Positions 10,753 to 17,876 of a stretch of 64,000 bases of DNA are shown in pieces; the first letter of the stretch is position 1, and every line of letters begins with the position of its first letter. Origin of the DNA: Psychrobacillus glaciei (GTDB taxonomy: Bacteria; Bacillota; Bacilli; Bacillales_A; Planococcaceae); assembly GCF_008973485.1 (NCBI RefSeq), contig NZ_CP031223.1, positions 3,868,001 to 3,932,000 on the forward strand, given 5' to 3'. The position numbers were made by a program, and so were the translations under genes. The notes under the pieces were generated by a model. It had not been told where the DNA came from and made no database searches. It saw only the letters and a list, made by a program, of their open reading frames with translations.

Positions 10753-10796
10753 AAATCCCTTCCATCTCTTTTCTGAGAAGGAAGGGATTTCTTTTA
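10753..10796. terminator. Bidirectional terminator between alkA and the secreted-protein gene
   Basis: An 11-bp perfect stem (AAATCCCTTCC 10753-10763 with 10780-10790) has an A-run before it and a TTTCTTTTA run after it. It serves both convergent genes. Confidence 0.85.
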
Positions 10797-12227
10797 TTGC
10801 TGATTTAGTAATTCTAAGATGTCTTCTGAAACATAGATTTTATTGTTCTTTAGTACTGGTTTTTCTTTAAATTGTTGTATGCTTTTATTGTAACTATACG
10901 TTTTTTTACCGCGTGTAACTTGGATGGTACTATTTCCTAATGATAGGGTCGTACTAAATCGTTTTGAATTTGTCTTTACTTCGTACCCTAGTTGTTCTGC
11001 AACTTTACGAAGTGGAATCATTTTGACCCCATTCTTCATAAAATGATCCTTTTCAATAATCTTTTGTACTTCCTTCATTTCTGGAGAAAGATAGTTAATC
11101 GCTACGATTTTAGTTGGTGGTGTTTGTGCTGGAATACTCATAGTTGTTATTGTATAAAATACAACTAGCTCTTTTCCGTTTAAGTCTTCTTGTTTAATCT
11201 TCTCGCCTTTTTCATTTACTAAAAGTGTTTCTTTGCCAATGTTTAACTTTAGCTCTTTATCTAAACTTAAAAATTTATCGTCAAACTTTGATACTTTTAC
11301 AGATCCAACCTGTTCTTCGTCATGTACAATAATCAACTCTGGAGTAATTTGCGCAGGGTAGATTAAAATCATTGGTTTGTTTTTATCATAGTATGCGTCT
11401 ATTCGTTGTCCTTTTTTGAAAGACTCTATTTTTACCGTTTTTGTTGTACCACTATTGAATACAAGTGTGTCATTAGTGATTGTAAAAATTGTGGTTATTG
11501 GCTCTTTTTCTTCTGTATCTACCGTTAGGATGGCTTTTCCATCTTTTGAAGCAATACTTTTAATAATCCCAGTACTCTCCATGAAATTGGTTGTATCTTG
11601 TGGGGAAAGATCATCCATCACTACAACTTTACTTGGTGTCGTCTGAGCAGGAATACTTCTAGTGGAAACTGTATAAAATACAACGAGCTCTTTGCCAGCT
11701 ATATCTTTTTGATCCAGTTTCTCTCCTTTTCCACTTATTATAATAGTTTCTTTTCCAATGTTTAATTTTAGATCATTATCTAAACTAACAAATTTATTAT
11801 CGAACTTGCTGATTTTTACGTTGCCAAATTTTTCAGCGTCATGCACAATCACTAACTCTGGAGAGATTTGTGGTGGATAAATCGCAAGCATCGGTTTATT
11901 CTTACCGTAATATGCATCTACTTTTTGCCCTTTTTGAAAGGTTTCTTTTTTTAATGCTTTTGTCGTTCCACTATTGAATATAAGCGTGTCTTCTGTCAGC
12001 TTTAATATAGTGGTTTGTGGCTCTTTTTCTTCTGTCTTCACTGTAAGTGTGATTGTCTCATCTTGCTTTACAACATCTGTAATAATTCCTGAAGTTTTTA
12101 TAAAATTGGATGTGTCTTTTGGTTTCACTATTGATTCTTCCTCACTTTGCGCTTTAGCAACTGGCTGATGGAAATTGAAACCTACCATTAGTAATAATGC
12201 TACTGTAAATATGCTTATTTTCTTCAT
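10794..12227 (-). CDS. Secreted protein with two ~172-residue repeats and a C-terminal copper amine oxidase N-domain-like module
   Basis: The start is ATG 12227 (AAGGAG just upstream) and gives 477 residues. A signal peptide (MKKISIFTVALLLMVGF, likely cleaved after AKA near 26) precedes two tandem homologous blocks, about residues 38-210 and 211-384. Each has SGTTK, DAYYxKNKPM, IVHD, LKLNIGKET and GKELVVFYT landmarks. The last 90 residues (FMKNGVKMIPLRKVAEQLGYEV) resemble the copper amine oxidase N-terminal-like domain found in many secreted Bacillales proteins, where it is probably structural. The function is unknown. The internal repeat indicates a gene duplication. Confidence 0.8.
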   Translation of the reverse strand: MKKISIFTVALLLMVGFNFHQPVAKAQSEEESIVKPKDTSNFIKTSGIITDVVKQDETITLTVKTEEKEPQTTILKLTEDTLIFNSGTTKALKKETFQKGQKVDAYYGKNKPMLAIYPPQISPELVIVHDAEKFGNVKISKFDNKFVSLDNDLKLNIGKETIIISGKGEKLDQKDIAGKELVVFYTVSTRSIPAQTTPSKVVVMDDLSPQDTTNFMESTGIIKSIASKDGKAILTVDTEEKEPITTIFTITNDTLVFNSGTTKTVKIESFKKGQRIDAYYDKNKPMILIYPAQITPELIIVHDEEQVGSVKVSKFDDKFLSLDKELKLNIGKETLLVNEKGEKIKQEDLNGKELVVFYTITTMSIPAQTPPTKIVAINYLSPEMKEVQKIIEKDHFMKNGVKMIPLRKVAEQLGYEVKTNSKRFSTTLSLGNSTIQVTRGKKTYSYNKSIQQFKEKPVLKNNKIYVSEDILELLNQQ

Positions 12228-12364
12228 CGTATCACTCCTTTTTTTGCCACTCATTGCATTTGACGTATCATTTTGGAAAACGTTACATAAAAAACTGAAA
12301 CATTCTATATACTAAAAACGTATACAGTAGTTAGAAGAAAAAAATAAAAGAATGGAGTCTACAT

Positions 12365-14605: not shown

Positions 14606-14656
14606 AAAACAAACGTGAATGTTCGAACATTCACGTTTGTTTTGGTGCCAGGCACC
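14606..14656. repeat. 38-bp perfect palindrome plus GGTGCC-A-GGCACC palindrome (copy 2)
   Basis: Positions 14606-14643 form a perfect 38-bp palindrome (arms AAAACAAACGTGAATGTTC and its complement, with no loop). GGTGCCAGGCACC (14644-14656) follows immediately. It lies in the 370-base gap between the ABC-2 operon and the TAXI gene. The long palindrome could act as a terminator or extrude as a cruciform. The remainder of this gap, 14657-14864, shows only AT-rich promoter-like sequence. Confidence 0.75.
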
Positions 14657-14864
14657 TGAAATATGTTTGTAATATATGATGCGAATATCATCATTTACTG
14701 TCGAATTATAGGAAAAAACCGAGAATACATTGTTAATCTACAGAATAAAAGTATAATAATGTTAATCTTCTATCTGATGTGCTAACCAATCCACAAGTTA
14801 TATGTTCTTTATTTATGAAAGCGCTATCAAAAAAGGGGAAATATTAATTTTGGAGGAGAGAGAA

Positions 14865-15863
14865 TTGAAGAAGAAATTACTAGGTTTTGTTACTGTACTT
14901 CTCAGCATGATGTTACTGATTGCTGGTTGTAGTGAGGGGAAAAAGAATATTGCAATTGGTCCTCCAGCAAGTGAGACGAACTCGATTTCCAAACTCATAT
15001 TGGACGCATATGGTATTGGAGATGACGACTATACGGGTTTTCAAGAAGGGTTTGGAGATGCAGCTGATGGCGTGCAAGATGGGAATATCGACATTTCTAT
15101 TGGAATTTTGGGACTTCCGGCAGCTAGTATTGAAAGCTTACAAGCATCCGTCGGGGATGTTGTTATGTTAAGCCTCTCGGATGATGCTATTGCAAAAATT
15201 GAGAAAAACAGTGGATATAGACATCACACGATTCCAAAAGACACCTACGATTTTCTTGAGAACGATGTTCAAACAGTTACGGCATATGCTATTCTCATGG
15301 GAAATACGGATACAATCGACGATGAATTAGGCTATGAACTTGCCAAAATAATGATAGAAAAAGCTAGTGAGAACACGCACGCTCAGGCGAAACAAATGAC
15401 TTTAGAAAATGCACTTCGAGGTTCAGAGGGACTGCCAATCCATCCTGGTGCTAAGCGCTATTACGAGGAACAAGGTTTAACAGTAGATAATCCTGTTGCT
15501 GAACTTACTGCTGATAAAAGTAAACGTAAGAAAGAGTTAATTTTAGGTACGGGCAGTCAAGGTGGTACTTATTATCCCCTTGGAGGAGAAATGGCAAGCA
15601 TTTGGAATAAAAATATTAAAGGCGTTAACGTAACGAACACTGAAACAGGTGCATCCGTTGAAAACTTATCCAGTATCCGTGACGGAAATATGGATCTTGG
15701 AATGACCGTTCATGTTCCAGCTTTACAAGCAGTGAAAGGTGAAGGCGCTTTTGCCGGTCATGAAGTTCCAAACGCCGCTTTTATCGGGCATATCTATCCA
15801 GAAGTTATTCAGATCGTCACACGTAAAAGTACTGGAATAAAAAGTTTTGATGATTTGAAATAA
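14865..15863 (+). CDS. TAXI-family TRAP solute-binding lipoprotein with circularly permuted halves
   Basis: The start is TTG at 14865 with GGAGG upstream and gives 332 residues. A lipoprotein signal with lipobox LIAGC (Cys22) is followed directly by what is normally the C-terminal half of a TAXI protein: IAIGPPASETNSISKLILDAYG, DISIGILGLPAASIESL and ending LPIHPGAKRYYEEQGL. After a short linker comes the normal N-terminal half (residues 222-332: LILGTGSQGGTYYPLGGEMA, TGASVENLSSIRDGNMDLGM, IYPEVIQIVTRKSTGIKSFDDLK), and then the stop. The two halves add up to one full-length protein in swapped order. It could be a working permutant or a broken gene. It precedes its TRAP permease. Confidence 0.85.
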   Translation: MKKKLLGFVTVLLSMMLLIAGCSEGKKNIAIGPPASETNSISKLILDAYGIGDDDYTGFQEGFGDAADGVQDGNIDISIGILGLPAASIESLQASVGDVVMLSLSDDAIAKIEKNSGYRHHTIPKDTYDFLENDVQTVTAYAILMGNTDTIDDELGYELAKIMIEKASENTHAQAKQMTLENALRGSEGLPIHPGAKRYYEEQGLTVDNPVAELTADKSKRKKELILGTGSQGGTYYPLGGEMASIWNKNIKGVNVTNTETGASVENLSSIRDGNMDLGMTVHVPALQAVKGEGAFAGHEVPNAAFIGHIYPEVIQIVTRKSTGIKSFDDLK

Positions 15864-15905: not shown

Positions 15906-17876
15906 ATGAATGAGCAACAAACCGTTGACGCTCAGGAAATATTAGAAAAATACGACAAAGAAAATCAGTTTCGAACTAAGATTGGCAAATGGGCATGGAT
16001 TGTCACATTTTTAGGAGTTTCTCTTACCGTGTTCCATCTATATACTGCATATTTCGGTACGCTCCCTTCCCAAAAGCAAGGTGCAGTCCACTTAGGAACC
16101 GCACTCGGAGTTATATTTTTACTGTATCCTTTAAAAAAGGGTATGCAGAAAATCCAGAAAACAGTTCCGTGGTATGATGTTTTGCTTGCCTTTACCGCGA
16201 TGTATGTAACTTATCATAAGATTTTTTTCTTTGATTCCATCCTGCAGAGTAGGATTTCCGGATATAGTTTACCCGATGTCATCATCTCAGTACTTGGTAT
16301 CGTTCTAGTACTTGAGGCAACAAGGAGAACGGTCGGCTTACCAATTGTTATTGTGGCCCTAGTTGCCATGCTATATGCGATTTTCGGAAATTTCGTTCCT
16401 ACACAAATTCTTTCGCATCCAGGCTTTTCATTCGATCGTACTGCAACGACACTTTGGTATAAGGAAAGCGGAATATTTGGAACACCAATTCAAATTTCAG
16501 CAAAGTTTATTTTCCTGTTCCTATTTTTTGGTGTAATGCTTGTGCAAACAAATATTGGAAAGTTTTTTAATGATCTAGCATTTGCCCTAACTGGTCGCTA
16601 TACAGGTGGAACAGCAAAAACTGCAGTAGTGGCAAGTGCATTACAAGGAACTGTTTCGGGAAGCTCGGTTGGTAATACGGTCGCAACCGGTTCTTTTACA
16701 ATTCCGATGATGAAGAAAGCGGGATTTAAACCTGAATTTGCTGGTGCGACGGAAGCCGCTGCATCAACCGGAGGTCAAATCATGCCCCCAATGATGGGGG
16801 CTGCTGCATTCATTATGATGGAATACTTAGGTGTTTCATATGGAGTCATTATGTTGGCAGCTGTCATTCCAGCAATTCTTTATTTTACGGGAATTTTCAT
16901 TGGGACACATTTTGAGGCTAAAAAGCTAAAAATAAACGGTTTGCCAAAATCCCAATTACCTTCCTTTAGAAAACTAATGAAGAGAAACTGGTTTATGCTA
17001 TTACCTTTGCTTATCATTATGGGAACAATTATGAATGGCTTCACACCACAGCGGGCGGCCCTTTTTGGAATTATCTCGGCATTTTTAGTTAGCCTTGTTC
17101 GAAAAGAAACAAGAATGTCATTCAGGCAGACGGTTAATGTTCTTGAACAAGGTACTAGAGTAGCACTTCCTGTCATTGCTGCTGTTGCAACTGCTGGTGT
17201 CATCGCAGGGGTCGTTAGTATGACTGGGCTAGGTTCAAAATTTGCTGCTGGTGTTATTGCTCTATCTAATGGTTATCTAATACTTGCACTATTCTTCACA
17301 ATGATTGCCTGCCTTATCTTAGGAATGGGGCTGCCAACAACAGCAAACTATGTCGTAACAGCAACCATCGCTGCCCCGGTGCTTATCAATGAATTCGGAG
17401 TGGCACCAATCGCGGCTCATATGTTCGTTTTCTACTTTGGCATTGCTGCCGATATTACCCCTCCTGTATGTCTTGCAGCATACGCGGCGGCTGGAATTGC
17501 GAGGGCCAATCCATTTAAGACAGGAATGAATGCAGTTAAACTAGCTATTGCAGCATTCATCGTTCCATATATTTTCATTTATAATCCGATTTTAGTTATG
17601 GTTGACGTAAAATTAAATATGTTAGTTTTTTCAGTTATAGCCTCCCTAATTGGGATGGTTGCTGTTAGTAGTTCAATGATTGGCTACTTTATACGAAATT
17701 CCAGGATTTGGGAGAGGATCGTTCTATTTGGAGCAGGTATTATGTTAATTGTACCTGAAATTGTAAGTAGCCTAATTGGTGTAGTCCTAATATTAGCAAT
17801 ATGGTTCATCCAAAGACAACGTACTGACGATGTATTTGAACCAGAAAGCTCATCAGTCAGTCAAGCTTTGTATTAA
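15906..17876 (+). CDS. TRAP transporter fused permease (4TM+12TM)
   Basis: The 656-residue protein fuses the small (DctQ-like) and large (DctM-like) TRAP subunits, the form that normally works with TAXI binding proteins. It has about 16-18 hydrophobic segments. Typical large-subunit landmarks are TAVVASALQGTVSGSSVGNT, EAAASTGGQIMPPMMGAAAF and LGMGLPTTANYVVTATIAAP. It imports organic acids or amino acids using the sodium or proton gradient. The gene starts 42 bases after the permuted binding protein, and the intact permease argues that the system is recent or still in use. Confidence 0.93.
   Translation: MNEQQTVDAQEILEKYDKENQFRTKIGKWAWIVTFLGVSLTVFHLYTAYFGTLPSQKQGAVHLGTALGVIFLLYPLKKGMQKIQKTVPWYDVLLAFTAMYVTYHKIFFFDSILQSRISGYSLPDVIISVLGIVLVLEATRRTVGLPIVIVALVAMLYAIFGNFVPTQILSHPGFSFDRTATTLWYKESGIFGTPIQISAKFIFLFLFFGVMLVQTNIGKFFNDLAFALTGRYTGGTAKTAVVASALQGTVSGSSVGNTVATGSFTIPMMKKAGFKPEFAGATEAAASTGGQIMPPMMGAAAFIMMEYLGVSYGVIMLAAVIPAILYFTGIFIGTHFEAKKLKINGLPKSQLPSFRKLMKRNWFMLLPLLIIMGTIMNGFTPQRAALFGIISAFLVSLVRKETRMSFRQTVNVLEQGTRVALPVIAAVATAGVIAGVVSMTGLGSKFAAGVIALSNGYLILALFFTMIACLILGMGLPTTANYVVTATIAAPVLINEFGVAPIAAHMFVFYFGIAADITPPVCLAAYAAAGIARANPFKTGMNAVKLAIAAFIVPYIFIYNPILVMVDVKLNMLVFSVIASLIGMVAVSSSMIGYFIRNSRIWERIVLFGAGIMLIVPEIVSSLIGVVLILAIWFIQRQRTDDVFEPESSSVSQALY

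Follow-up and report, generated by a model that had tools for sequence, protein, structure and literature searches.

How is a binding protein to be understood when its two segments stand in the reverse of the order seen in its solved relatives? The question is raised by a gene of Psychrobacillus glaciei that codes for a TAXI-type solute-binding lipoprotein beside the permease of a TRAP transporter, and which could represent a pseudogene or assembly rearrangement, a recombinant of two paralogues, a protein that has left transport, or a natural circular permutant that still works with its permease.

Gene and locus organization

The window considered here, i.e., the whole stretch of DNA that was analyzed, comprises 64,000 nucleotides, and all positions refer to it. 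The binding protein (332 aa) is coded on the plus strand at 14865..15863 by a single open frame with a TTG start at 14865 and a stop at 15861–15863, an in-frame ATG being present at 14802; its delineation rests on the ORF, the family profiles and colinear relatives. At its start the sequence displays a lipoprotein signal peptide (residues 1–21) and Cys22 (codon 14928–14930), together spanning 14865..14930 (+), followed by a short tether from the Cys to the first strand (residues 23–26; 14931..14942, +), with the new N-terminus corresponding to the interlobe hinge at the GKK/NIAIGPP junction. Next comes the equivalent of the ordinary C-terminal part (residues 27–205; 14943..15479, +), which is defined by Pfam, TIGR and PDB matches, then a new linker, TVDNPVAELTADKSKRKK (residues 206–223; 15480..15533, +), which by comparison with relatives leads from the old C-terminus to the old N-terminus, and lastly the equivalent of the ordinary N-terminal part (residues 224–332; 15534..15860, +), which is defined by PDB matches and the sister alignment and ends in IKSFDDLK.

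The adjacent gene codes for an intact and complete fused TRAP transporter permease (QM; 656 aa) at 15906..17876 (+), which starts 42 bases past the stop of the binding protein and is recognized by TIGR02123 with 733.2 bits. The genome has one match each to TAXI and to the fused TRAP permease (TRAP_fused), and with one TAXI match only, a tandem gene pair in this genome is rejected. The genes upstream of the pair resemble, by eye, those of ABC transporters, and visual inspection of the 369 bases upstream and the 42 bases downstream of the binding-protein gene revealed no recognizable remnants of lost segments. A perfect 38-base palindrome (14606–14643), directly followed by a 13-base inverted repeat, GGTGCCAGGCACC (the whole at 14606–14656), lies in the interval that separates the ABC-type permease gene from the binding-protein gene. 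Elsewhere in the window, 10794–12254 (−) codes for a 486-aa protein that looks secreted and has, ahead of a different C-terminal part, two modules that resemble each other at a spacing of about 173 residues (TSGIITDV... and STGIIKSI...).

Swapped order of the TAXI segments

Membership in the TAXI-type TRAP solute-binding proteins is supported both by curated family cut-offs, which are passed, and by the adjacency of a fused TRAP permease. The Pfam profile PF16868 (NMT1_3) matches in two stretches with 219.2 bits against a cut-off of 27, the best stretch placing protein residues 26–204 on profile positions 111–289 of 289; likewise, TIGR02122 (TRAP_TAXI) matches in two stretches with 227 bits against a cut-off of 84.35, the best placing residues 27–204 on positions 142–320 of 320. 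In a PDB search the protein matched seven distinct TAXI sequences. In the three printed alignments, query residues 223–332 (or 225–332, 225–331) precede query residues 27–205 along the chain; for the remaining four we have the best stretch only, with the C segment near the chain end or the N segment near the start, which is consistent with the reversed order. A profile built from 48 permuted proteins retrieves the same seven sequences. The canonical linear order of these solved proteins, which is not part of the curated cut-offs, is therefore what the protein lacks: its C segment precedes its N segment, and accordingly we class it as a permuted variant descended from TAXI rather than as an ordinary TAXI protein.

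A sequence-only reading of this gene had claimed that the usual C-terminal half of a TAXI protein follows the lipoprotein signal and is itself followed by the N-terminal half, and that an intact fused TRAP permease comes after the gene; both claims held, the former on the family profiles and PDB alignments and the latter on the TIGR02123 match. Its claim that the halves make up one full TAXI protein held only in part: they do, but the linker of about 18 residues (206–223) intervenes between the old ends.

Predicted fold of the permutant

A structure prediction had been proposed as a check on the permutation, and the AlphaFold2 model obtained from a 48-row permuted alignment forms both lobes (pLDDT 91.0, pTM 0.86). 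As a control, the ordinary protein L165 was modeled with 26 other ordinary rows (pLDDT 93.8, pTM 0.89). Each model has 21 secondary-structure elements, which agree in kind and order only after rotation, i.e., when the permutant is read from the strand at 203–207 on through the strand at 6–9. It should be borne in mind that ordinary TAXI structures may have been among those on which AlphaFold2 was trained.

Foldseek, which aligns in chain order, matched the ordinary control to TAXI crystal structures over 299–309 columns in the first seven rows (e.g., 1us4 with 299 columns, TM 0.90, rmsd 1.9 and E 7.8e-34). For the permutant, the sole TAXI entry among the 50 listed rows was 9ibp (two chains), with 201 columns, TM 0.50 and E 1.2e-08, the other rows being unrelated binding proteins and enzymes with low TM. 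Circular permutation predicts such a pattern, namely a roughly full-length match for the control and a partial chain-order match for the permutant. The model thus predicts a two-lobed TAXI fold with hinge and pocket formed, in the absence of a superposition in rotated order.

Distribution and conservation

Colinear full-length matches are present in 8 of the 19 genomes of the genus (82–100% identity) and in 36 of the 261 genomes of the family, with its own genome included in both counts. In the family they occur in 3 of 19 genera, with identities of 74–79% in genus g17 and 71–73% in genus g2, and 225 of the 261 lack any match at E 1e-30. Of 398 genomes drawn from the class, 37 matched at E 1e-28, eight of them colinearly; of 398 drawn from the phylum, only two matched at E 1e-45, namely its own genome and one with an ordinary protein. 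When the halves were located separately at 75 loci of named genomes, 70 showed the C–N order and five the N–C order. The 70 span two phyla: Psychrobacillus, Sporosarcina, Siminovitchia, Oceanobacillus, Virgibacillus, Bhargavaea, Salinibacillus and others among the Bacillota, and, beyond these, Halomonas, Vreelandella, Billgrantia, Bisbaumannia and one record titled Pseudomonas. In the family of a Halomonas genome, 19 of the 201 genomes drawn have the permuted form. As to plasmid-borne spread, no match was found in 72,556 plasmid records at E 1e-40.

These data bear on the possibility that the gene is a pseudogene or the product of a local assembly rearrangement. In its favor stands only the fact that the order differs from that of the seven matched solved TAXI sequences. 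Against it, the same order in one open frame recurs at 70 of the 75 named loci across two phyla, and independent genomes share the same junctions. The frame is open from the signal through the N half in all 100 permuted rows inspected, a set in which some genes are represented by copies from two collections. Moreover, the permuted order is seen in complete or single-contig records (L128, which is NZ_CP048812; G011; G182, G184, G203, G205 and G219), and assembly error is therefore excluded. The gene is also under strong purifying selection: whole-gene dN/dS (NG86) is 0.036–0.074 in the five of eight pairs where it could be computed, dS being saturated in the other three. These values are rough because dS itself exceeds 1 in the pairs used. 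The linker is looser, with dN/dS of 0.05–0.46 in the four pairs where it was computable. We hence regard this rival as excluded for practical purposes. Both the pseudogene and the assembly rearrangement had been put forward as options in the sequence-only reading and both failed, whereas its option of a natural circular permutant held, the route by duplication and loss of the ends within that option remaining inferred. The search of related genomes that it had proposed recovered the same order at the above 70 of 75 loci and in the 36 of 261 family genomes.

Some genomes show additional copies. Oceanobacillus damuensis strain PT-20 has two permuted copies (L062 and L072) on two contigs, which are sisters in the 89-row tree described below. 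Two Siminovitchia records and one titled Bacillus norwichensis have, on the strand of the permuted pair and a few kb upstream of it, an ordinary TAXI gene accompanied by a permease-type gene of its own (L061 1430–2284, L063 1426–2280 and L065 138–992).

Junctions, linker and tether

In the closest ordinary sisters the chain runs across the hinge as ...DLRGKRVAIGPPGSG... or ...DLKGKKVAIGPPGSG... (L164, L165); past the point that matches IKSFDDLK, ordinary sisters run on with G-K-type residues and then V/I-AIGP. The permutant, by comparison, is laid out with the signal peptide, Cys, short tether and NIAIGPP at the start and ...KSFDDLK at the end. In the 74 loci matched, 23–24 residues lead from the invariant IYPE to the stop. 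The linker, when counted from the conserved GL/GI up to LGTGS, measures 18–21 residues in 74 of 76 permuted loci, or about 15–18 once the roughly three strand residues before LGTGS are excluded, and it looks similar by eye in the remaining two (L162, L163). The ordinary sisters inspected end within a few residues of the matching point, i.e., without the extension of about 18 residues, and the ordinary L172 has ...SGKKQEMILGTGS ahead of its first strand, much like ...SKRKKELILGTGS in the permutant. We infer that the linker resembles an old C-terminal extension joined to an old lipoprotein tether, which fits a tandem in-frame duplication trimmed at both ends.

A lipobox-like motif, [LVIMT]-[ASTVGI]-[AG]-C, is present in all 76 permuted loci. 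The permuted tether, measured from the Cys to the IAIG strand motif, is 6–9 residues long in 64 of the 76 (6–18 overall), as against a median of 30 (range 6–59) from the Cys to the first strand in 15 ordinary sisters, among which two from Anaerobacillus are also short. The 76 loci include L159 and L160, second copies of L088 and L087, respectively; another 29 loci (L002–L008, L032–L053), some of them copies of named contigs and others separate genomes, were omitted from the trees and from the tether and linker counts. The permuted proteins of the Halomonadaceae (L096–L119 without L101; L128) retain a lipoprotein-type Cys adjoined by Gly or Ser. Under the sorting rule of E. coli, lipoproteins with such a Cys would go to the outer membrane, which would be odd for a short-tethered binding protein of a transporter.

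A probable single origin of the permuted clade

For phylogenetic analysis, the two halves were aligned separately and set in the ordinary order, giving 89 rows (63 permuted and 26 ordinary) after removal of near-duplicates; ordinary paralogues from the genus (L009–L030, about 30–40% identity) were left out. In the 89-row tree, the permuted rows fall on one side of a branch with SH-aLRT 99. A more careful tree of 53 of these rows supports the permuted clade with 99/98 and recovers it in 100% of 200 bootstrap trees, and trees of the single halves support it with 98 (N half) and 96 (C half), with one change of state each. The permease tree is congruent: the 58 partners of permuted proteins form one clade against eight others with support of 100. 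Given the permuted clade in the whole and half trees and the matching permease clade, one gene was most likely permuted once, and we consider a single permutation event in one ancestral gene to be very likely.

An alternative is that the halves came from two different TAXI paralogues, making the protein a recombinant and not a single-gene permutant. It draws some support from the two halves having different nearest ordinary rows, L165 (N half) and L164 (C half). However, both lie inside the same small ordinary group (L164, L165, L166, L167 and L172), which has support of 98/94 in the 53-row tree; differences inside it fall within tree error, and each half tree gives a single permuted clade. 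We accordingly find this recombinant origin very improbable.

As to the route by which the single gene was permuted, tandem duplication followed by trimming remains an inference: no doubled gene was seen and a path of fission and refusion is not excluded. In that rival, the gene split into separately expressed halves that later fused again in the opposite order to give a functional permutant. It may be said in its favor that no doubled gene is seen, the ORFs at the listed colinear matches being 334–385 aa. However, a split gene is not seen either, one of the halves would lack a secretion signal of its own while the gene was split, and two ordered fusions would be required. In natural permutants generally, duplication and trimming takes fewer steps than fission and refusion. 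The latter route is hence unlikely, and we retain duplication and trimming as the preferred one.

In the best tree, the Halomonadaceae and the Pseudomonas record form a clade within the permuted Bacillota (98/96 for the enclosing group). Strict proof of this nesting had to be given up, as the AU test did not reject the alternative with all permuted Bacillota as one clade (p 0.131). All ordinary sisters in the tree belong to Bacillota, the group in which they were mainly sought, and the further TAXI matches of the three Halomonas genomes examined are only distantly related, with identities no higher than 35% (C half) and 40% (N half). On these two grounds, transfer from the Bacillota towards the Halomonadaceae is the likelier direction, though it is not proven.

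Ligand-binding pocket and gene neighborhoods

The TAXI protein VcGluP holds glutamate with Y45, S75, Q93, E125, Y200 and M201, while waters are held by S40, Y46, H123, G203 and others (PMC11574862). Y45 and Q93 are the most important for glutamate, and Q93 occurs in only 54% of the TAXI sequences of that study (PMC11574862); it therefore marks the type of ligand rather than membership in the family. We mapped ten VcGluP positions by hand via the PDB alignment and added the neighbor of Q93, giving 11 positions, with V44, G156 and D157 left out. At 10 of the 11, the majority residue is the same in the 63 permuted and 15 sister rows. The S40, Y45, S75, E125 and G203 positions are kept in all 63 permuted and all 15 sister rows, and that of Y46 is Tyr in all 63 permuted and 12 of the 15 sisters. 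In every row of both sets, Q93 is replaced by Val, with His beside it, H123 by Tyr and Y200 by Gly. The M201 position alone has a different majority residue, Ile in the permuted proteins (I/V/L across the 63 rows) and Leu in the sisters. Going by residue conservation, the pocket thus changed little on permutation and remains close to that of the ordinary sisters; there are no binding data.

Judged against the VcGluP glutamate pocket, the permuted proteins keep three of the six residues (Y45, S75 and E125), with Q93 replaced by Val, Y200 by Gly and M201 by I/V/L, and thus do not qualify. In particular, Val in place of Gln93 in all 63 permuted rows means that glutamate is not assured as the ligand, and we infer from the pocket residues that the ligand is likely something other than plain glutamate.

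The gene neighborhoods offer a hint in one lineage. Of the 24 loci in the Halomonadaceae and the Pseudomonas record, 21 have at least one of three aminoadipate genes within about 5 kb on either side, namely those for 2-aminoadipate transaminase (NF049976), the 2-oxoadipate dioxygenase/decarboxylase HglS (NF049974) and the D-2-hydroxyglutarate dehydrogenase YdiJ (NF049975); the three loci without them are L099, L103 and the short contig L110. By clustering, 22 of the 24 also have a LysR gene of the GcvA type. The aminoadipate families were each named from one representative, and no comparison was made with the neighbors of other TAXI genes in Halomonadaceae. Since 2-aminoadipate differs from glutamate by a single additional methylene group, it is our first guess for the ligand in Halomonadaceae. 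With only neighboring genes to infer it from and no binding data, we lean slightly against this guess being correct, and no paper on a TRAP transporter for 2-aminoadipate was found in the open-access literature searched. Strong matches to the three genes are limited to the Halomonadaceae/Pseudomonas loci, four Bacillota loci having merely an aminotransferase match of 28–31%. The HglS family PF07063 has no match in the P. glaciei genome, while the control matches in E. coli; this, together with the confinement of strong matches, weakens 2-aminoadipate as the ligand in P. glaciei.

In 11 Bacillota loci, genes for M20 amidohydrolases lie near the pair (by clustering, in two clusters with one representative each named). 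In five Sporosarcina/Filibacter loci (L060, L068, L070, L080 and L082) such a gene lies upstream on the same strand, immediately so in four, and in six loci of the Psychrobacillus group (L054–L059) another M20 gene lies on the opposite strand. These neighbors might possibly bear on the ligand in Bacillota.

Proposed anchoring and coupling to the permease

A TRAP permease match lies just downstream at 74 of the 75 named loci, including all five ordinary ones. At the one permuted locus without such a match (L069 5340–5620), the next long ORF starts about 210 bases downstream. We posit that this is very likely a working TRAP binding protein, circularly permuted, that arose from one old gene by duplication and trimming; its fold is predicted, its ligand binding, ligand delivery and the duplication route are inferred, and no binding, transport or expression data are available. 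The ancestral TAXI gene in Bacilli would have doubled in tandem and in frame, after which the first copy would have lost its N-terminal segment and the second its C-terminal segment. The remaining chain would comprise the signal peptide, a short tether, the old C segment, a linker of about 15–18 residues and the old N segment, with the cut falling in the loop after the short helix DDLK, just ahead of the first strand of lobe 2. By inference from the family, the exported and lipidated protein would fold into two lobes about the hinge and close on a small acidic ligand, and the loaded protein would dock on the adjacent fused permease for import of the ligand by ion-coupled symport. The lipid anchor would thereby have left the start of lobe 1 for the interlobe hinge of lobe 2, on a mostly short tether, and such hinge anchoring would restrict the pose of the binding protein.

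A different possibility is that the protein left transport and lost its docking on the permease, acting instead as a ligand sensor or scavenger tethered to the surface. The anchor at the hinge, the mostly short tether (6–9 residues in 64 of 76) and the lack of a permease match at L069 could be cited for it. Yet the permease downstream at 74 of 75 loci and the matching permease clade amount to co-inheritance, and we deem this departure from transport most unlikely, preferring the working TRAP binding protein set out above. A bolder joint reading of that protein is possible though rather unlikely, in which the permutation is an adaptation to anchoring, with the tether moved from lobe 1 to the hinge and shortened to give a fixed pose over the TRAP permease, as a second independent case beside TpMglB-2 (see below), and the Halomonadaceae variant, acquired from Bacillota, serves 2-aminoadipate uptake. 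That the permutation is neutral is also conceivable.

Relation to known systems and implications

The ordinary TAXI proteins (TIGR02122/PF16868; e.g., VcGluP, 8s4j and 9ibo; TtGluBP, 1us4 and 8u79) are homologous to the permutant in both segments and share the adjacent fused permease; the predicted elements agree after rotation, and the positions of VcGluP S40, Y45, Y46, S75, E125 and G203 are conserved. In contrast to VcGluP and TtGluBP, the permutant has swapped segments, a linker of about 15–18 residues in place of the old termini and an anchor at the hinge, and it differs from VcGluP in having Val at Gln93 and Gly at Tyr200. Its ordinary sisters in Bacilli, with identities per half of 50–66% (L164–L172) and 53–59% (L123–L127, from Salipaludibacillus, Alkalicoccus and Anaerobacillus), have nearly the same pocket residues but the N–C order and a mostly longer tether.

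Among other transporters, TpMglB-2 (Tp0684) of Treponema pallidum is a circularly permuted ABC glucose-binding lipoprotein, whose authors raise the possibility that its topology is an adaptation to anchoring (PMC4990184). It is likewise a natural circular permutant of a two-lobed binding protein and a tethered lipoprotein, and both traits of this type (cluster Bc), circular permutation and a lipoprotein anchor, are present in our protein, the anchor by sequence motif only. However, TpMglB-2 belongs to type I/cluster B, has an ABC partner, a poorly conserved permuted portion and an extra fourth hinge crossing (PMC4990184), and homology to MglB or the type I sugar-binding cluster is not met by our protein, which matched only TAXI families and TAXI-type chains by sequence at the thresholds used. 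The TAXI-GltS protein BP0403 (PMC12344293) also has a TAXI binding domain in an unusual architecture, but that domain sits at the C-terminal end of a longer protein and has GltS as its partner, and the abstract states no permutation (PMC12344293).

In the open-access literature searched, which is partial and without bioRxiv and subscription journals, we found no permuted TAXI or TRAP binding protein; "permut" occurs there alongside TRAP transporter and TAXI in the statistical sense only, and one paper mentions circular permutation only as a means to improve sensors (PMC3454389). Circular permutation of binding proteins and TAXI proteins are thus each known, while a permuted TAXI/TRAP form is new within that literature. 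Profile tools score the permutant as a plain TAXI protein since both halves match, and such permutants are easily missed in automatic annotation.

The Halomonadaceae gene context supplies a specific ligand hypothesis for a poorly characterized class of transporters. More generally, natural permutants with conservation over many genera and an unbroken link to their partner gene are useful test cases for the importance of chain order in folding and function. With ordinary sisters of 50–66% identity per half beside a large permuted clade, and with similar pockets and permeases, one can test directly what permutation does to folding, closing, anchoring and delivery. The permuted TAXI protein, which belongs to a different cluster than TpMglB-2 and has close ordinary sisters, likewise makes the idea of permutation as an adaptation to anchoring testable.
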